Assembly: GCF_000026185.1 (NCBI RefSeq)
Contig: NC_010694.1
Span: 930,001 to 994,000, forward strand
Source: Erwinia tasmaniensis Et1/99
GTDB taxonomy: Bacteria; Pseudomonadota; Gammaproteobacteria; Enterobacterales; Enterobacteriaceae
Direction: 5' to 3'
DNA length: 64,000 nucleotides
Made by a program: the position numbers and the translations under genes
In this document: piece by piece, positions 4,259 through 17,582 of the stretch
How positions within the stretch are numbered: the stretch's first letter is position 1
Layout: every line of letters begins with the position of its first letter
Notes under the pieces: generated by a model
The model's database searches: none
Told to the model about the DNA's origin: nothing
Seen by the model: only the letters and a program-made list of their open reading frames with translations

Positions 4259-5308
4259 GTTCACTGCCGCACAGGCAGCTTAGAAAATCAGAACCCCGTT
4301 CACAATTGCGTGTTTCAGGTTCACTGCCGCACAGGCAGCTTAGAAAACTGGTTCGCTGCACGGGTCAAACTCAATTTCGTTCACTGCCGCACAGGCAGCT
4401 TAGAAAATCAGAACCCCGTTCACAATTGCGTGTTTCAGGTTCACTGCCGCACAGGCAGCTTAGAAATCAAGAAAATCAAATGGCCGGACAAGGTAAAGGT
4501 TCACTGCCGCACAGGCAGCTTAGAAACAGATGACCAGCTAATAAGCCTCTCATCATCAGTTCACTGCCGCACAGGCAGCTTAGAAAAGTTTTTGGTTTGG
4601 TCGCCATATAGAATTATTGTTCACTGCCGCACAGGCAGCTTAGAAATTAACCCCGGCACCAATACCGATAGAGTCATAGTTCACTGCCGCACAGGCAGCT
4701 TAGAAAAAAACGTGTTCATGAATCTCGGAACGGCTAGTGTTCACTGCCGCACAGGCAGCTTAGAAATGTTTAGCGGTATCTCCGCATAGCGCATGGAAGT
4801 TCACTGCCGCACAGGCAGCTTAGAAATTGCCGGGTAAGGCAAGGCAATGGCTAAAAGAGTTCACTGCCGCACAGGCAGCTTAGAAACATCGTGGACGCCG
4901 CCCAGAGCATCACCAGCTGTTCACTGCCGCACAGGCAGCTTAGAAACATCAACCTGATGGACTCCATGCTGCCCAAAACGTTCACTGCCGCACAGGCAGC
5001 TTAGAAAAGTAGGGCGGGATAGTGCCGCATTTAATAGCCGTTCACTGCCGCACAGGCAGCTTAGAAATTACCCGATGCTTCAATGAATCCAGACGTACCG
5101 TTCACTGCCGCACAGGCAGCTTAGAAAAGTTTGCGATTAGCCAAATCATGTCAGCAATAAGTTCACTGCCGCACAGGCAGCTTAGAAAAGACGCTGAACG
5201 AGCTTATTAACGTCTTAGAGGTTCACTGCCGCACAGGCAGCTTAGAAAAAAGACGGCACGTTTTTCACCAAAGACGATTTGTTCACTGCCGTACAGGCAG
5301 CCCAGAAA
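4259..5308 (+). CRISPR. CRISPR1 array, type I-F, 18 repeats / 17 spacers
   Basis: Repeats of 28 bp start at 4259 and recur every 60-61 bp up to 5281. They read GTTCACTGCCGCACAGGCAG followed by CTTAGAAA, the type I-F consensus except for C instead of T at position 12. Spacers are 32 bp, two of them 33 bp. The last repeat (5281-5308) is degenerate: T at position 12 and CCC in place of CTT. This marks the leader-distal end, so the array is read left to right from the leader at 4073-4258. Spacer 1 (4287-4318) and spacer 3 (4407-4438) are identical. Open reading frames running through the array are artefacts of the 60-bp period. Confidence 0.99.
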
Positions 5309-5432
5309 TTTCGACATGGTCACCGGGGATCCGCTCTACACACTAATGAATTGCTCTACCAACAGATTAGATTATCTGTTGATTTCTGGTTATCATAACC
5401 CTCTCTGTACATGGAGTTTAGGACTACATAAC

Positions 5433-5963
5433 ATGGCCTTACATGGCTCGTTCGTTCTTAATGGGGCTGATTACTCTCCGCTTAGCTTTCCGGGAGTCGG
5501 AACGTTTATGGCGTTTTCCGGGAGTGGTGACAACAGGAACCGTGCCGGTTGTGCTCATATACCGACTGTAGGGCCTCTCCCGACAGGTAAATACTGGATT
5601 GTCGACCGATCCCAGGGTGGATTGCTCTCACAGAGCCTGTCTGCATCAAAAGATCTATTTAATAAGGTATTCCGCGATGCGCAGTTTGGCCATTCTGACT
5701 GGTTTGCTCTATGGCGAGATGATATGAGCATTGATGACTGGACGTGGATAAACAGCGTCAGGCGTGGGAATTTTCGTCTACATCCAGGAACAATATCGGA
5801 AGGCTGCGTAACGCTTTATCGAAATTCTGATTTTGCTCTGCTCCGAAACATGCTGCTCCGGACGCCGTTGGTCGATGTTCCCTGCATGAGAAATCTGAAA
5901 GCCCGTGGTTCTATTGAGGTATCAAGTCATGCGTATGGCGACACCTGCCCGACGACTCGCTAA
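5433..5963 (+). CDS. Tlde1-like T6SS effector (DUF2778, L,D-transpeptidase fold)
   Basis: A 176-aa protein of the DUF2778 family, which includes the T6SS effector Tlde1 that attacks peptidoglycan precursors in the periplasm of rival bacteria. Visible family features are the start MALHGSFVLNGADYSPL, the block GPLPTGKYWIVDR, and the catalytic motif with His117 and Cys125 in RLHPGTISEGCVTL. The ORF is open further upstream, but 5433 has AGGA about 10 nt before it and is where family similarity begins. There is no signal peptide. The next gene overlaps its 3' end by 35 nt and looks like its immunity protein. Its position, directly after CRISPR1 and ahead of cas1, is unusual. It is far from the Rhs locus and no T6SS structural genes are in the window. 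Confidence 0.82.
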   Translation: MALHGSFVLNGADYSPLSFPGVGTFMAFSGSGDNRNRAGCAHIPTVGPLPTGKYWIVDRSQGGLLSQSLSASKDLFNKVFRDAQFGHSDWFALWRDDMSIDDWTWINSVRRGNFRLHPGTISEGCVTLYRNSDFALLRNMLLRTPLVDVPCMRNLKARGSIEVSSHAYGDTCPTTR

Positions 5964-6464: not shown

Positions 6465-6498
6465 CCATAGCCATTTAAATTATTTAAAATAATAAAAA
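6465..6498 (+). promoter_or_regulatory. predicted target site of the cas1-side crRNA-like guide
   Basis: CC at 6465-6466 (the type I-F protospacer-adjacent motif) is followed at 6467 by ATAGCCATTTAAATTATT. The pseudo-spacer of the mini-array at 6581 begins ATAGCGATATATATTATT. Positions 1-5, 7, 8, 10, 11 and 13-18 agree (15 of 18); positions 6, 9 and 12 differ. Positions 6 and 12 are bases that the type I-F complex flips out and does not read. The site overlaps the AT-rich, promoter-like DNA upstream of cas1. That it is bound and represses is inference. Confidence 0.7.
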
Positions 6499-6552: not shown

Positions 6553-6640
6553 TTTCACTGCTGAACAAGCAGCTTAGAAAATAGCGATATATATTATTGG
6601 TAGTTACTGGGTTTCTACTGCCGTACAGGCAGCTATAAAT
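6553..6640 (+). ncRNA. degenerate mini-CRISPR encoding a CreR-like Cas-regulating guide RNA (cas1 side)
   Basis: A solitary repeat-spacer-repeat unit with exact type I-F geometry of 28+32+28 bp. The first repeat (6553-6580) differs from consensus at four positions, but the Cas6f stem is kept by paired changes (CTGCT-GAACA-AGCAG), and the 8-nt handle CTTAGAAA (6573-6580) is perfect. The second repeat (6613-6640) keeps the stem-loop CTGCC-GTACA-GGCAG but has lost the flanks. Cas6f processing would give a normal 60-nt crRNA-like guide (6573-6632). Its pseudo-spacer (6581-6612) matches a CC-flanked site 114 bp upstream (6467-6484). This is the arrangement described for CreR RNAs that guide the interference complex to cas promoters. 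An alternative is a decayed array remnant, but that would not explain the target match. Confidence 0.78.
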
Positions 6641-11108: not shown

Positions 11109-11387
11109 ATGGATATCTGCTACGATCCTGACAAGGATGTGAAAAACAGACGTAAGCACGGCTACTCACTCGCTGACAGCGCCCTGCTGGACTGGGATGA
11201 AATGGTCGTATATGAAGATAACCGGCAGCCTTTTGATGAAATCCGGTTGATTGGCTTAACCTATGGCCTTGCCAGGCTGGGTAACAGGATTTTTTCCGTC
11301 TGTTTTACCGAGCATGAAGAGGTTTACCGGATAATCAGTTTGCGCCTTGCCACCAGGAAGGAGATCCAGCGTTATGCCGAAACTTAA
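11109..11387 (+). CDS. brnT: BrnT family toxin
   Basis: A 92-aa ribonuclease toxin of type II toxin-antitoxin systems with a RelE-like fold. The typical BrnT pattern is visible: an N-terminal YDPDKDVKNRRKHGYSLADS, then DWDEMVVYEDNRQ, a RLIGLTYGLA strand, and a C-terminal IISLRLATRKEIQRYAE helix. Length matches the family. Its 3' end overlaps the start of the antitoxin gene by 14 nt. The pair sits between cas2/3 and csy1 and is closed by a terminator at 11680. It is therefore either cotranscribed with the cas1 operon or independent, but not joined to csy1. Confidence 0.9.
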   Translation: MDICYDPDKDVKNRRKHGYSLADSALLDWDEMVVYEDNRQPFDEIRLIGLTYGLARLGNRIFSVCFTEHEEVYRIISLRLATRKEIQRYAET

Positions 11388-11670
11388 GCCGGGAACCGTC
11401 TTCCCCACTACAGAAGAAGACGCAAAAATTTACGCCGCCGTGGCGGATGATGAAGACAGCATGCTGTTGGAAGACCCGCAGCTGAAACTGACGCCGTTGA
11501 AAAAGCGCGGTCGTCCGCAAAAAGCACAGCCGAAGATTGCGGTAAGCGTGCGCTATACGCCGGAGGTGATCAGTGCGTTTAAAGCATCAGGCGCGGGCTG
11601 GCAAACGCGGATGGATGTGGCGCTACAGGACTGGTTAAAGACCCATCAGCCAACAGAAATAAAGCTCTGA
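11374..11670 (+). CDS. brnA: BrnA family antitoxin
   Basis: A 98-aa antitoxin that neutralises BrnT and represses the operon. The C-terminal half has the ribbon-helix-helix core: the strand IAVSVRYTPEVISAFKAS followed by GWQTRMDVALQDWLKTH. The N-terminal half (PGTVFPTTEEDAKIYAAVAD) is the toxin-binding region. I chose the ATG at 11374 (MPKLKPGTVFP), which has GGAG about 13 nt upstream and overlaps brnT; the ORF extends further upstream but only through brnT sequence. Antitoxin lability would kill or arrest cells that lose this part of the cas locus. Confidence 0.88.
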   Translation: MPKLKPGTVFPTTEEDAKIYAAVADDEDSMLLEDPQLKLTPLKKRGRPQKAQPKIAVSVRYTPEVISAFKASGAGWQTRMDVALQDWLKTHQPTEIKL

Positions 11671-11679
11671 AGAAAAGAG

Positions 11680-11708
11680 AACGGCATCCGTAAGGGTGCC
11701 GTTTTTTT
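11680..11708 (+). terminator. Rho-independent terminator after brnA
   Basis: AACGGCA pairs with TGCCGTT around a CCGTAAGGG loop and is followed by a run of seven Ts. It ends the brnTA (and possibly cas1-cas2/3) transcript before the csy1 control region, so the csy operon needs its own promoter. Confidence 0.85.
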
Positions 11709-11720
11709 ATTAAAAAATCA

Positions 11721-11795
11721 ATGGCATGCTGCCTGTTCGGCAGTAAATAAAAAATACTTTAAAATTATTTCTAAGCTGCTTGTTCAGCAGTGCTG
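11721..11795 (-). ncRNA. degenerate mini-CRISPR encoding a CreR/CreA-like guide RNA (csy1 side)
   Basis: On the minus strand a repeat (11795-11768), a short 19-nt pseudo-spacer (11767-11749) and a second, more decayed repeat (11748-11721) follow each other. The first repeat is identical over 25 nt to the diverged repeat before cas1, with stem CTGCT-GAACA-AGCAG and the perfect handle CTTAGAAA. The second keeps CTGCC-GAACA-GGCAG. Cas6f would release a 47-nt guide (11775-11729). The pseudo-spacer TAATTTTAAAG matches 10 of 11 bases of a CC-flanked site at 11941-11931 on the same strand, over the presumed promoter of the csy1 side. A guide this short would build a reduced Csy complex, which fits binding without cleavage (inference). 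Confidence 0.8.
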
Positions 11796-11800
11796 GCAAG

Positions 11801-11828
11801 AGTACAGCATAACTTTTCCTGCTATCAA
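11801..11828 (-). promoter_or_regulatory. candidate promoter of the csy1-side guide RNA
   Basis: On the minus strand, TTGATA (11828-11823) and TGTACT (11806-11801) are spaced 16 bp apart. Transcription would start near 11795, at the first base of the degenerate repeat. The -35 matches consensus at five of six positions, the -10 at four of six. The position supports an independently transcribed small RNA running away from csy1. Confidence 0.5.
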
Positions 11829-11927
11829 GATTTTTAACAATGCTGAGCTGGTATTTTCAGCCTGACTCCCTGAGCGTAAAAAATTCAGCGAACATTCTGG
11901 CAGTTGACCTCACGTTGGTGTATCTTT

Positions 11928-11943
11928 CCCCTTTACAATTAGG
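11928..11943 (-). promoter_or_regulatory. predicted target site of the csy1-side guide, over a -10 element
   Basis: On the minus strand CC (11943-11942) is followed by TAATTGTAAAG (11941-11931). The guide reads TAATTTTAAAG, so the only difference in the first 11 bases is position 6, a flipped-out position in type I-F complexes. Position 12 and beyond do not match. On the plus strand the same bases contain TACAAT (11934-11939), a good -10 hexamer. TTGACC at 11904-11909 is 24 bp away, too far for a standard -35, so the promoter is not fully defined. Complex binding here would block initiation towards the 37-codon ORF and csy1. Confidence 0.72.
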
Positions 11944-11961: not shown

Positions 11962-12075
11962 GTGATTAGAAATATACTTTGGGTCGTTATAGGTTTGGCT
12001 ATCATCATACTGGCGTGTAATTCGCGAGTTGATTCTCTAAGTGTTAACGTTAACCTAAATATCATAAAGTTATAG
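11962..12075 (+). CDS. 37-codon hydrophobic ORF in the csy1 leader (CreT-like toxin or leader peptide?)
   Basis: Starts at GTG (11962) with a G-rich stretch (GGGGGCGG) just before it and ends at TAG. The peptide starts M/V-IRNILWVVIGLAIIILAC and continues with a polar tail, giving one strong membrane segment like small type I toxins. Rare codons are frequent: AGA at codon 3, AUA at 5, 10, 16 and 35, CGA at 22. It begins 18 nt downstream of the predicted guide target and ends 38 nt before csy1. In CreTA modules a small toxic ORF is repressed by a crRNA-like guide, so this ORF is in the right place to be one. No homologue is recognised. It may instead be chance coding in the csy1 5' UTR. Confidence 0.4.
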   Translation: MIRNILWVVIGLAIIILACNSRVDSLSVNVNLNIIKL

Positions 12076-12113: not shown

Positions 12114-13457
12114 ATGCTGCGAGAGACCTTAGCGTCTTTTATCACCAGCTATATTGCCGCCCGGAAAACGGCAAAGCTGGAGGCGTTTGATAAAGAGAGC
12201 GCGAAAAAACTGGCCGTGTTAGCGTCAGAGGATGAAATCAGCGTACTGCGCCAGCAGCTTCAGCAGCAGCGCGCGGAGCTGGAGCAAAAATACCAGCCGC
12301 AGGCCTGGCTGAGCGATGCAGCCAGCCGCGCCGGGCAGATCAAGCTGGTGACACACGCCGCAAAATTTACCCACAGCGATGTCCGCGGCAGCAGCATATT
12401 TAGCAGCGGCAGCGGTCAGCATGAAACGTATCTCTCCACCGCAACCCTGCAAAAACCGGCGCTGGATGCCGTTGGCAACGCTGCTGCCCTCGATATTGCC
12501 CGGCTGCTGCAAAGCGAGGTGGAAGGGGATTCATTAATTGCCAGCCTGCAACGCGGCGATTACTCCGCGCTGGAGTCGCTGACCGATAACCCGGAACTGT
12601 GCGCCAGCTGGATAAGCGGATTTAAGCAGGTGCTGGTTGACCGCCAGCCGGCCAGCCATAAGCTGGCTAAACAGATCTATTTTCCTATCGCCGATGGGCA
12701 GTATCATCTGCTCAGCCCGCTGTTTTCCTCATCCCTGGCGCATGCCCTGAACCAACGTATTACAGAGGCCAAATTTAGCGAGCAGGCCAAAACGGCGCGT
12801 GCCGCGCTGAAAGCGAAAAGCTGGCATGACGCGCCGGTAGTGGCTTATCCTGATACCGCCATCACCCAGTTTGGCGGCACCAAGCCGCAGAATATCTCCT
12901 ATTTAAACAGCGTGCGCGGCGGAAAAGTCTGGCTATTACCCTGTGCGCCGCCGGTATGGCAAACCCTGAGCAAACCCCCTGCTAAGCATAAATCTATCTT
13001 TAACTCCTCCAACGACTTTTCCCGTCAGTCCTGGCCAGTTATTCAGCGAATGAGCCGCTTTTTACGGCGCGTAGAGCGGCTGGACAGCACGCTTGATATT
13101 CGCCAGCAGCGTCTGGCGATGACCGATGAGATTATCGATATCCTGTTTAACTATGTTGCCGGGATACAAAACCAGACGGAATCGATCGGATGGAGCGCAC
13201 ATCCGGACTGCGTACTGAAACGTTCGCAGCAGCTGTGGCTTGACCCCTGGCGCGGCGATAAGGAATTTCAGTTCGAGCGTGAGGGCGGTGACTGGAAAAG
13301 CGAAGTCGCACGCGATTTCGGCCACTGGCTGAGTCGTCATTTACACAGTGATAAGCTGAATATGGGCGAGACGGAACGCCGCCACTTCTCCACCGCTCCG
13401 CTGTTTAAGCAACGGCTGCGCGAGCTGGAAAAAGACCTTGCGGAGGATCTGCCATGA
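12114..13457 (+). CDS. csy1: type I-F Csy1 (Cas8f), large subunit of the interference complex
   Basis: A 447-aa protein of the Csy1 family. It forms the tail of the Csy complex with Csy2, binds the crRNA 5' handle and reads the CC motif. It is recognised by its place as first gene of a csy1-csy2-csy3-cas6f operon, by its length, and by conserved segments such as [22 protein letters not shown] near residues 262-283 (shown in part) and SRFLRRV near 320. I took ATG 12114, preceded by AAAGGAG, instead of an upstream TTG. The start of csy2 overlaps its stop (ATGA). Its promoter region carries the guide target described above. Confidence 0.95.
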
Positions 13458-14395
13458 GCGCGCTGATTGTCCTACGCCATCTGCGGGTAGAAAACGCCAA
13501 TGCCATTGCCGGTATAACCTGGGGCTTTCCGGCTATCACTCATTTCCTCGGTTTTACCCATGCCTTATCGCGCAAACTGCAACAGAGCCACAATATGACT
13601 CTGTCCGGCTGCGGCGTGATTTGCCATCAGCAGCAGGTCCACGCCTATACCTCAGGCCGCGACTACCAGTTTGCACTGACGCGTAATCCGTTGACCAAAG
13701 AAGCGAAAACCGCCGCCTTTAATGAAGAAGGGCGCATGCATATGACGGTTTCACTGTTGATGGAGTGTCATGGCAGCATTGCCGGTGGCGAACAGGGGGC
13801 AGCCGAGCTAAAGCAAACGCTGGCTAATCTGTGTCAGCGCTTACGCCTTGCTGGTGGTACGGTCATCTCGATCGGCCAGGTGCAGATAAGCGGCTGGCCG
13901 CAGGATGACGGCGAGACGCGCAAAATAATGCGCCGCCTGCTGCCCGGTTTCGCCCTACTGGATCGCTCCGCGCTGCTGGCGCAGCACCACGACCAGCAGC
14001 CGCAGCCGGAGATGCTGGATGCCTGGCTCGATTTTGCCGCCTTAAAGATGCAGGCGGATGACGGGGCAACGCCAGCGGACGGCAATGTGCAGTGGCAATA
14101 CCAGCCGAAACCTGGTGCAGGCTATCTGGTGCCGCTGATGACCGGCTACCGCGCTATCTCGCCGCTCTATCCGCCGGGAGAGGTGGCCAACAGCCGCGAT
14201 ACGGAAACGCCGTTTTGTTTTACCGAGGCCGTGTACGGCGTGGGCGAATGGCGCGGGCTGCACCGCATAGATGATCTACGCCATCTGTTCTGGCGTTATC
14301 ACCATCAGGACGACTATTACCTGTGCCGTGGTGAAGAAACAGCGTGCGATCAGGATTATCCTGACGATGCAGATGATGACATCAACTACAACTAA
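13454..14395 (+). CDS. csy2: type I-F Csy2 (Cas5f)
   Basis: A 313-aa Cas5-type subunit that caps the 5' handle of the crRNA together with Csy1. The N-terminus ([19 protein letters not shown]) and [18 protein letters not shown] near residues 22-39 are characteristic of Csy2. It overlaps csy1 by 4 nt and precedes csy3 by 23 nt. The C-terminus is strongly acidic ([15 protein letters not shown]). Confidence 0.95.
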
Positions 14396-14418
14396 TTTGA
14401 CCTTATAAGGAAATAATC

Positions 14419-15423
14419 ATGGCTAAATCAGCTATTAAAACCGCCTCCGTGCTGGCCTTCGAGCGCAAGTTATCTAACTCTGATGCCATTATGCTGGCCG
14501 GAAAATGGCAGGATAAGCAAAACTGGACGCCGATAAAAATTCAGGAGAAAGCGGTGCGCGGCACCATCTCCAACCGCCTGAAAAATGCCATCGCCAGCGA
14601 TCCGCAAAAACTGGATGCTGAGATCCAAAAACCGAATTTGCAGCGTGTTGATGTGGCCGCGCTGCCTTATAACTGCGACAGCTTAAAAGTCTGCTTTACT
14701 CTACGGGTGCTGGGCGGTCTTGCCACACCGGCGGTATGTAACGACAGGGCATACCAGGCGGCGCTGGCGGCGGTGATTGACGGCTATATTGCCCGCCATG
14801 GCTTCAGCACGCTGGCCGCGCGCTATGCCGAAAACATCGCTAACGGGCGCTTCCTGTGGCGTAACCGTCTGGGTGCCGGGCGTGTTGCGGTGCAGGTGAC
14901 CAGCGGCGAAAAACGCTGGCAGTTTGACGGCCATAACTACAGTCTGCGGGCATTCAGCCAGCCGCAGGGCGATTTACTGGAGCTGGCGCAGGCGATTGAA
15001 CAGGGGCTGAGCGGTGACAGTTTTGCGCTGTTTAACGTTGAGGCCCAGGTCTATCTCGGTAACGGCCAGGAGGTCTTTCCTTCACAGGAGCTGGTGCTGG
15101 ATAGCAACAGTAAAAAAAGCAAGCTGCTCTACCAGATTGACGACACGGCGGCCATTCATTCGCAGAAAATTGGCAATGCGCTGCGCACCATTGATAGCTG
15201 GTATCCGGACGCGGATGAACTGGATGTAGGGCCGATCTCCGTTGAACCTTACGGTTCGGTGACCAGCCGGGGGATCGCCTATCGTCAGCCCATCAAGAAA
15301 ATGGATTTTTATACCCTGCTGGATAACTGGGTGACCAAAGATAAACAACCGGATCTGGAGCAGCAGCACTACGTGATGGCGATATTGATCCGTGGTGGTG
15401 TATTCGGTGAGAAAAGCGAGTAG
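14419..15423 (+). CDS. csy3: type I-F Csy3 (Cas7f), backbone subunit
   Basis: A 334-aa Cas7-type protein, six copies of which normally line a 32-nt spacer and kink out every sixth base. Segments typical of Csy3 include [16 protein letters not shown] near residue 10, [19 protein letters not shown] near 135 and [10 protein letters not shown] near 283. AAGGAAATA precedes the start. The six-base kinking is known for this family and underlies the interpretation of mismatches at positions 6 and 12 in the predicted regulatory guides. Confidence 0.95.
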
Positions 15424-15431
15424 GGGGCTTT

Positions 15432-15986
15432 ATGGATCGCTATCAGGATATTCGCGTGCGGGTGGATGCGGAGATGACTGCACCGGTGCTGCTGGCACAG
15501 GTGTTTATGCGTCTGCATCAGGTGCTGATGCGGGCGGCGAATGGCCGTATCGGTATCAGCTTCCCCGATGTCAAGCTGACCTTGGGCGACCGTATCCGGC
15601 TGCACGGCACGCTGGATGACTTAAGCTCACTACAGCAAAGCGGCTGGGATAAGGGCCTGACGGATTATATCGCCTGTTCCGCCATTGACCCTGTTCCGCC
15701 GGGGGCGGCGTGGCGCACCGTCAGGCGCGTCCAGGTGAAAAGTAGCGCTGAACGCCTGCGCCGACGTTCGGTGAATAAGGGCTGGCTAAATGAAGCAGAG
15801 GCCGCAGAGCGTATTAACGTACTGAGCGAGCAGCGCAGTGATTTGCCGTATTTGCAGATAAAGAGTGGTTCTAATGGCCATGCCTGGCGGCTATTTATTG
15901 AACATGGCCCGCTTGTCTCTGTGCCCGTCAACGGCGGCTTTAGTTCCTATGGGTTAAGTGCCACTGCCACCGTGCCCTGGTTTTAA
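15432..15986 (+). CDS. cas6f: type I-F crRNA endoribonuclease Cas6f (Csy4)
   Basis: A 184-aa enzyme that binds the repeat hairpin and cuts just after its stem, leaving the 8-nt handle CUUAGAAA. The catalytic histidine is at residue 29 (VFMRLHQVL), the position known from Pseudomonas Csy4, and the C-terminal [17 protein letters not shown] is characteristic. It starts 8 nt after csy3 and ends the csy operon. CRISPR2 follows after 128 bp. It should also process the two degenerate mini-arrays, since their stems are preserved. Confidence 0.96.
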
Positions 15987-16114: not shown

Positions 16115-17582
16115 GTTCACTGCCGTACAGGCAGCTTAGAAGTTCAACAAGAAGCGCGATGAAGAAATTGCTGCGTTCACTGCCGTACAGGCAGCTTAGA
16201 AGGTATTGACTGAATCGGCAAATTCCCATCAGGTGTTCACTGCCGTACAGGCAGCTTAGAAGTTTGAAACTGGCGAGAGAGTCGGCGTGAAACAGTTCAC
16301 TGCCGTACAGGCAGCTTAGAAGAACTCGTCTAGCCAACGCCGCCCGCCGCGCTCGTTCACTGCCGTACAGGCAGCTTAGAAGAACTATGAGGCACTCATT
16401 AATGTCTTTGTGCGGGTTCACTGCCGTACAGGCAGCTTAGAAGTGGCATCGCTGAAGCTGGGCCTGAATCATGACGTTCACTGCCGTACAGGCAGCTTAG
16501 AAGGGAGAAATGGAAAGCATTCATGACCATGAAACGTTCACTGCCGTACAGGCAGCTTAGAAGCTTCTGGGCCTGTCCAGTCAGTTTACGACCTAGTTCA
16601 CTGCCGTACAGGCAGCTTAGAAGTGTTCGGTGCTGCGAATTCCAGTGTGGCTTATGTTCACTGCCGTACAGGCAGCTTAGAAGTCAGAACCCCGAATTGC
16701 TTCGTCGATATAGTCGTTCACTGCCGTACAGGCAGCTTAGAAGTGTTAAATGAACACCCAAGATTTTGCCTACGTGTTCACTGCCGTACAGGCAGCTTAG
16801 AAGACACCAACTTGGCCCGTTTCCCACACCAACTTGTTCACTGCCGTACAGGCAGCTTAGAAGTGGCATGGTGTACCGCCTACCAGTACATCGGGGTTCA
16901 CTGCCGTACAGGCAGCTTAGAAGATGAATATAAATTCCGTTTCCGGGTCTTTCTCGTTCACTGCCGTACAGGCAGCTTAGAAGACCCAGGTGCTTACCCC
17001 AGAGAACTAACAAGTGTTCACTGCCGTACAGGCAGCTTAGAAGCACAGGCAGTCTGATTTGCACTGACATTCTGAGTTCACTGCCGTACAGGCAGCTTAG
17101 AAGCGGCAAACTTTAATAGCTGCATGCGGATTCCTGTTCACTGCCGTACAGGCAGCTTAGAAGGCGTTCCGAACATTGAAAATCTCCGCATCATCGTTCA
17201 CTGCCGTACAGGCAGCTTAGAAGTTCCAGCTCACGCTCCGTCCAGTCACGCATGGGTTCACTGCCGTACAGGCAGCTTAGAAGTTCGGGAACGGCTCGGA
17301 ATAACTGTTGTGGCTGTTCACTGCCGTACAGGCAGCTTAGAAGAACGTCTGATTGGTATCGCATTCCACGCTGCGTTCACTGCCGTACAGGTAGCTTAGA
17401 AGTGTGATACCCGGAAGCGCTTTTAATTCTGCGGGTTCACTGCCGTACAGGCAGCTTAGAAGGGTAACGATGGGTATGAGATTAACTGCGGAGAGTTCAC
17501 TGCCGTACAGGCAGCTTAGAAGATGAAAATCGGCGAAAAAATTAAACAGATCCGGTTCACTGGCGTACAGACCGCCTTAAAT
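16115..17582 (+). CRISPR. CRISPR2 array, type I-F, 25 repeats / 24 spacers
   Basis: Repeats of 28 bp start at 16115 and recur every 60 bp, with one 61-bp and one 59-bp interval. They read GTTCACTGCCGTACAGGCAG followed by CTTAGAAG. They differ from CRISPR1 at position 12 (T, the family consensus) and at position 28 (G instead of A), in every copy. The repeat at 17375 has GGTAG in the second stem arm, keeping a G-U pair. The last repeat (17555-17582) is badly decayed and marks the leader-distal end. Some spacers read as phage-like coding sequence, but no source could be identified here. Confidence 0.99.

Follow-up and report, generated by a model that had tools for sequence, protein, structure and literature searches.

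The window, a stretch of 64,000 nucleotides from Erwinia tasmaniensis Et1/99, includes a type I-F CRISPR-Cas locus. Two arrays (4259-5308 and 16115-17582) carry the repeat variants GCACAGG...GAAA and GTACAGG...GAAG, and one spacer of the first array is present in two copies, at 4287-4318 and 4407-4438. Between this first array and cas1 sits an ORF (5316-5963) whose product we take, by eye, to resemble a secreted antibacterial enzyme of the DUF2778 type (Tlde1-like). The effector genes are csy1 (cas8f; 12114-13457, + strand; NCBIfam TIGR02564), followed by csy2, csy3 and cas6f (csy4) at 13454-15986 (+; TIGR02565, TIGR02566 and TIGR02563), with cas6f itself at 15432-15986. Between cas3 and csy1 lie the brnT-brnA toxin-antitoxin pair (11109-11670, +; PF04365 and PF14384), a strong terminator-like hairpin after brnA (11677-11706, +; folding energy -20.6 kcal/mol, z -6.9, with a run of T behind it) which was missed by a simple terminator scan, a mini-array on the minus strand, and a small ORF of 37 codons (11962-12075, +) that ends 38 bp before csy1. 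The hairpin should separate cas1-cas3-brnTA from the csy side and, given its strength, the small peptide and csy1-csy2-csy3-cas6f very probably share the promoter that the mini-array would guard.

The mini-array, located between brnA and csy1, is composed of a degenerate repeat R1 (11795-11768, -; 22 of 28 positions shared with GTTCACTGCCGTACAGGCAGCTTAGAAA), a pseudo-spacer of 19 nt which reads TAATTTTAAAG... (11767-11749, -), and a second degenerate repeat R2 (11748-11721, -; 20 of 28 positions shared with GTTCACTGCCGTACAGGCAGCTTAGAAA). The stem CTGCC/GGCAG is intact in R2, while that of R1 reads CTGCT/AGCAG, a double change in which two bases differ from the array repeat and pairing is retained. 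A short spacer between two degenerate repeats is the arrangement of CreA-type guides. R1 carries the 8-nt handle CTTAGAAA, and with both hairpins and handle present the repeats are compatible with predicted processing by Cas6; I-F processing with Cas6f cleavage would yield a mature guide RNA of 47 nt (8 + 19 + 20; 11775-11729, -). An Acinetobacter CreA RNA was measured at 8 + 20 + 20 nt, according to extracts from PMC10097628. A promoter, TTGATA-16-TGTACT, can be read directly at 11801-11828 on the minus strand, 5 nt before R1, and both hexamers are invariant across three Erwinia loci. The sequence-only reading that preceded this analysis had described this mini-array and its upstream promoter, and all of its letters and coordinates agreed on checking.

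The target of the guide is situated at 11931-11943 (-), where a CC PAM is followed by TAATTGTAAAG and ten non-flipped bases match. In guide positions 1-11 the sole mismatch is at position 6, just as the earlier reading had it; pairing ends after position 11, and none of positions 13-17 match. Pairing of a PAM-flanked site by seed positions 1-5 and 7-11 is the CreA-type pattern, which has already been published for a haloarchaeal CreA (PMC8501985). The string CC+TAATTNTAAAG occurs exactly once in the window, whereas 100 shuffles give no occurrence, and once in the whole 4.07 Mb genome, namely at the site upstream of csy1. The runner-up among the CC sites of the window matches 5 non-flipped bases in a row vs 10 at the target, and only 14 of 20,000 shuffled guides attained 10 in a row within the cas3-csy1 region. 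An aim at brnT was considered and rejected, since the genome matches the guide exactly only once, ahead of csy1. From the target to csy1 the distance is 171 bp, and no terminator is reported between them.

The distribution of such units was assessed in a sample of 121 distinct csy1 loci (numbered here with the prefix L), nearly all of which were collected with a csy1 protein search and three with a peptide search; the csy1 starts of the distant loci L119, L120 and L128 were extrapolated. The nearest named record to the csy1 of the window is L002 from Erwinia piriflorinigrans (88% identical). The detector required a hairpin with its stem and a handle, then a guide with a CC target. A like unit with a matching CC target is present in 36 of the 121 loci; run on the opposite strand the detector gave 0 of 121, and among 605 shuffles it gave 1. 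Occurrence follows the size of the gap between cas3 and csy1: 32 of the 42 loci whose gap reaches 200 bp have a unit, as do 1 of 11 at 70-200 bp, none of 61 below 70 bp, and 3 of 7 with the gap unknown. Ten loci have a gap of at least 200 bp yet no unit (L007, L015, L017, L019, L031, L047, L064, L066, L075 and L129). Under relaxed rules L015, L031 and L129 pass, and a target on the other strand is found for L017 and also for L071, whose gap is unknown; the relaxed hits of L064 and L066 resemble chance. The L017 guide has its CC site on the opposite strand with 8 matches in a row and 13 of 15 non-flipped bases. In 20 of 34 unit loci that were scanned, the -10 with the highest score likewise stops 0-5 nt short of R1. 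The R1 stem covariation, for 24 of the repeats, amounts to 18 double changes vs 4.6 in shuffles and is partly built in because the detector required a stem.

The cas3-csy1 interval is also a docking place for toxin-antitoxin genes. BrnTA is found in the window, L043 and L044, an AbiEii-like gene with a DUF6088/AbiEi-like partner in L045, CcdAB on the minus strand in L007, and a Phd/YefM antitoxin in L064, with a near-identical ORF in L066 (a likeness by ORF rather than by domain scan).

Among the 36 unit loci 33 guide sequences are distinct, and each guide covaries with its target. Own guides scored at least 20 in 33 of 36 loci, compared with 5 of 1256 foreign guides, in a test that ran on a slightly different set of 36 loci from the final detector count. 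Foreign guides equalled the own guide in L017 (35 of 35), in L071 (8 of 35), and in a single instance apiece in L091, L098 and L135. Between the window and L043/L044, positions 4 and 11 changed in guide and target alike. Scored positions 1-5 include one mismatch in total over the 36 loci, where the agreement is partly selected, all positions except 6, 12 and 18 having been scored; the unscored positions 6, 12 and 18 mismatch in 22, 25 and 26 of the 36. On comparison of guides with sites, this free mismatch at 6, 12 and 18 is what base flipping leads one to expect of a Cascade-type guide. The unit of the window has the lowest total pairing of all 36 (10 of 15 non-flipped bases). The rule proposed from the window alone, i.e., CC, a seed match and a mismatch at the flipped base, is thus repeated in 36 of the 121 loci with covarying guides, and a chance match, which had been thought hard to sustain, is rejected by the unique genomic match, the shuffles and the foreign-guide controls across loci.

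The promoter opposite the guide is less distinct. The plus strand at 11934-11939 does read TACAAT, as had been pointed out, but its proposed role as a -10 element is not supported: neither a consensus scan nor the best results of two matrix scans gave a promoter that uses it. The matrix was home-made; the narrower scan ended at +30 and a later scan was wider. Three candidates for the csy promoter of the window score 6.7-7.7 and none stands out. That with 7.7 has a -10 which ends 35 nt past the target, within the ORF, and that with 7.2 lies 61 nt before the target. The weak candidate CTGGCA-18-TATCTT (11897-11926, +; score 6.7, second in the narrower scan) would set the start of the peptide-csy transcript near 11933, within the target, and was picked solely because its like ranks first in L043 and, within the narrower scan, in L044. 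The target site lies upstream of the ORF and may lie at a promoter, as the targets of CreA-type and CreR guides do. The commonest layout of best candidates across loci has the -35 directly after the PAM (10 of 33 loci in the scan to +30; 14 of 33, at +25 to +32, in the wider scan), with L014, L121 and L113 as examples, and a Csy footprint would therefore reach the -35; in most of the 14 the predicted start would come before the peptide start codon. In other loci the target is at or just past the predicted start. The window, L043, L044, L046 and L049 are unlike the layout with the -35 after the PAM because the ORF begins 6-18 nt after the target.

The small ORF between target and csy1 starts with GTG and encodes a single hydrophobic helix, which, together with a coding test and its relatives, makes it a candidate CRISPR-guarded toxin. 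Its maximal 15-residue hydropathy is 3.14, a value equalled by 0 of 200 shuffles. A short hydrophobic peptide with one helix is what typifies type I small-peptide toxins; in place of their antisense RNA antitoxin, the guide here is divergent and has a PAM-flanked site upstream of the ORF. Within the window's family, 23 of 24 unit loci have a hydrophobic small ORF, a count that leaves out L014 (a Neisseriaceae record); the figure is 21 of 22 once L134 and L135, which entered the sample via the peptide search, are set aside. The shuffle p is at most 0.03 in 22 of the 23 hydrophobic ORFs and 0.115 in L074. In the exception, L045, the AbiEii-like toxin gene and its DUF6088/AbiEi-like partner occupy the slot. 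Outside the family there are 12 unit loci, of which L014 has a hydrophobic ORF, two were left out since the site falls inside an extrapolated csy1 start, and one of the nine others (L117) has such an ORF; the guide can therefore occur without the peptide. In relatives the ORF measures 20-78 codons and lies anywhere between 20 and 393 bp from csy1. Several of the peptides have 'KP' behind the helix and resemble FSIFSI at the C terminus, with low overall identity.

The substitution pattern of these ORFs is that of protein-coding genes. In five groups pN/pS is 0.25-0.40, and the pooled value is 0.33 (p 2e-9), as against 0.85 and 1.65 in the other two frames. Judged by this pattern, the small ORFs are translated genes which evolve as protein, and a random frame is rejected by both the hydropathy shuffles and pN/pS. 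A Pfam search with the 37-codon peptide returned no match, while a peptide profile search returned 11 proteins, the named ones being 'hypothetical protein' from Pectobacterium and Photorhabdus. Peptide relatives adjoin csy1 wherever they are found, i.e., in 3 of 37 genomes from Erwinia, 3 of 25 from the genus of G400, and 4 of 12 in the genus of G393, where one of the four is a remnant. Two further hits in the search of the Erwinia genomes (E value about 0.5) lie inside long unrelated frames. L043/L044 do not share the start codon of the window ORF, which is GTG, and translation may therefore be weak.

Loci without a guide were inspected for the fate of the peptide. Three of them, L051, L063 and L136, hold no intact peptide, which by eye is reduced to a C-terminal remnant. 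In L136 most of cas3 is missing along with the guide and the ORF start, and the cas3 frame continues into the C-terminal remnant. This pattern of loss fits the prediction for a guide-held toxin in what are three cases only. Two doubtful loci point in the opposite direction: L075 has a hydrophobic ORF (2.77) and a 9-base guide-like match without a proper repeat, and L066 has a hydrophobic ORF (2.49) and no convincing unit.

A further guide lies before cas1. This unit 1 is a mini-array with a 32-nt spacer (6553-6640, +), the target of which (6465-6484, +) mismatches only at positions 6, 9 and 12 in the first 18. The site at 6465 (+) is the best CC site for this guide, and with 6, 9 and 12 allowed to vary the pattern matches nowhere else in the genome; the site is found 70-90 bp upstream of unit 1 itself. 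A like unit upstream of cas1 occurs in 2 of 39 loci examined, and unit 1 would therefore be a younger or rarer addition. The sequence-only reading had presented the two guides of the locus as equal cases of one rule. The guide before cas1 stands; its equivalence to the one before csy1 does not, given the full-length 32-nt spacer, a target in its own upstream region and the presence in 2 of 39 loci.

Mini-arrays near cas8 in I-F1 systems, aimed at cas8 promoters, and toxin-antitoxin cargo were reportedly described by Shmakov et al. in 2023; the class of mini-array itself is therefore not new. We know of no conserved membrane peptide between target and cas8 in that description. A literature search for peptide toxins under a CreA-type guide, mini-arrays before csy1/cas8, and Erwinia I-F systems, which covered titles and the starts of abstracts, found no translated peptide. 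The guide is thus of a known CreA/CreR kind, and what appears new, as far as the literature searched goes, is that a conserved and translated membrane peptide lies under it.

Among described systems the closest is CreTA. As far as extracts from the Acinetobacter study go (PMC10097628), an I-F CreTA has been published in the cas3-csy1 interval, 19 more modules were found by eye, and the characterised CreT toxins act as RNA rather than as peptide. The module of Acinetobacter sp. WCHA45 shares with the window the cas3-csy1 interval, two degenerate repeats, a divergent guide, the CC PAM and a target that precedes a small ORF; it also has three mismatches, position 6 among them, and a relative without the module has a continuous cas operon (PMC10097628, in extract). 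Compared by description, it differs in that its CreT has a 33-bp mini-ORF and is an RNA toxin, whereas the window has a 37-codon ORF with a hydrophobic helix under protein-level selection. CreR, as outlined in extracts from PMC12737573, likewise employs a crRNA-like RNA that partly matches a cas promoter and achieves autorepression through the effector, but it is generally uncoupled from a toxin gene, whereas the transcript in the window would begin with a membrane peptide that is a candidate toxin. In CrePA, according to the same extracts (PMC12737573), a protein toxin is repressed by the effector with a crRNA-like antitoxin; CreP is typically a KilA-N protein that blocks cell division, in contrast to the short hydrophobic peptide found here.

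The csy unit had been thought to have a dedicated guide, with csy1 as the target gene. The crRNA-like guide with CC and seed upstream of csy1 is retained, while the first gene past the target is the ORF at 11962-12075 rather than csy1. As a conserved membrane-peptide ORF comes first after the target, guarding of a toxin in the manner of CreTA is at least as likely as simple autoregulation of cas genes. We consider it fairly probable from the evidence assembled here that the locus encodes a circuit of CreTA/CreR type, in which a crRNA-like RNA would direct the Csy complex to repress peptide-csy1-csy2-csy3-cas6f, the peptide probably being a guarded toxin. In this circuit, Cas6f would cut the minus-strand transcript at the two worn repeats to release the crRNA-like RNA, and the Csy complex would bring the 19-nt guide to the only genomic site that its seed matches exactly, where the peptide-csy transcript would begin. 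With pairing confined to the seed, the complex would bind and block transcription without a full R-loop and without cutting by Cas3. The effector would in this manner repress its own operon and with it the hydrophobic peptide, combining the logic of CreR with that of CreTA. Should functional Csy complex drop through mutation, an anti-CRISPR or competition from new crRNAs, both Csy and the peptide would rise, and the peptide would most likely damage the membrane. The outcome would be a cell addicted to its effector, or the death of cells in which the effector is blocked.

The alternative that survives best is a guide of the CreR kind which autorepresses the csy operon only; the ORF would then serve as a leader peptide or for translational coupling, or be carried along harmlessly. 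Autorepression of cas genes by CreR has been described for types I and V-A (PMC12737573, in extract), csy1 follows the ORF by 38 bp with no terminator reported between, so that any block also reaches csy1, and eight of the nine examined unit loci outside the family are without a hydrophobic ORF. Purifying selection on the protein together with hydrophobicity in 23 of 24 same-family loci exceeds, however, what a leader needs; a spacing to csy1 that ranges from 20 to 393 bp, the lack of an intact peptide in guide-less L051, L063 and L136, and the AbiEii-type pair that fills the slot in L045 also count against it, and on balance we regard it as unlikely. Improbable to a greater degree is a CreTA with an RNA toxin, in which the region of the ORF would act as RNA, like the CreT toxins of Acinetobacter and haloarchaea, for example via rare codons near the start. 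Known CreT genes with conserved mini-ORFs nevertheless act as RNA, and codons 3 and 5 of the window ORF are AGA and ATA, close to its start. Against this, synonymous change is three times faster than non-synonymous change, contrary to expectation for codons that are important as such, the ATA at codon 5 is TTA in L044, and the ORFs have 20-78 codons rather than 6-11. That the unit is a dead relic, i.e., a decayed CRISPR end or a functionless chance match, accords with its degenerate repeats (22 and 20 of 28) and with pairing in the window restricted to the seed, but is strongly contradicted by the covariation, the single genomic match, the controls and the conserved promoter, and we hold it to be very improbable indeed.

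Beyond the circuit of CreTA/CreR type that we favour, we see an evenly balanced case for a new class of CRISPR-guarded toxin, namely a translated and fast-evolving membrane peptide, encoded as the first gene of the Csy operon and repressed by Csy via a private guide. With sensor, immune effector and toxin on one transcript, loss or blockage of Csy would raise effector and toxin together, and the locus would be both an addiction module and an anti-CRISPR alarm.

The 33 guides in 36 loci, each with its own site in the same interval, constitute a natural record of the base pairs needed for repression by Csy, including the freedom at guide positions 6, 12 and 18. If the peptide is toxic, many Enterobacterales would possess small, easily tested protein toxins under CRISPR control. 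Toxicity would also account for the retention of the unit and the interval, and would provide a test of whether type I-F loci punish the loss or blockage of their effector.
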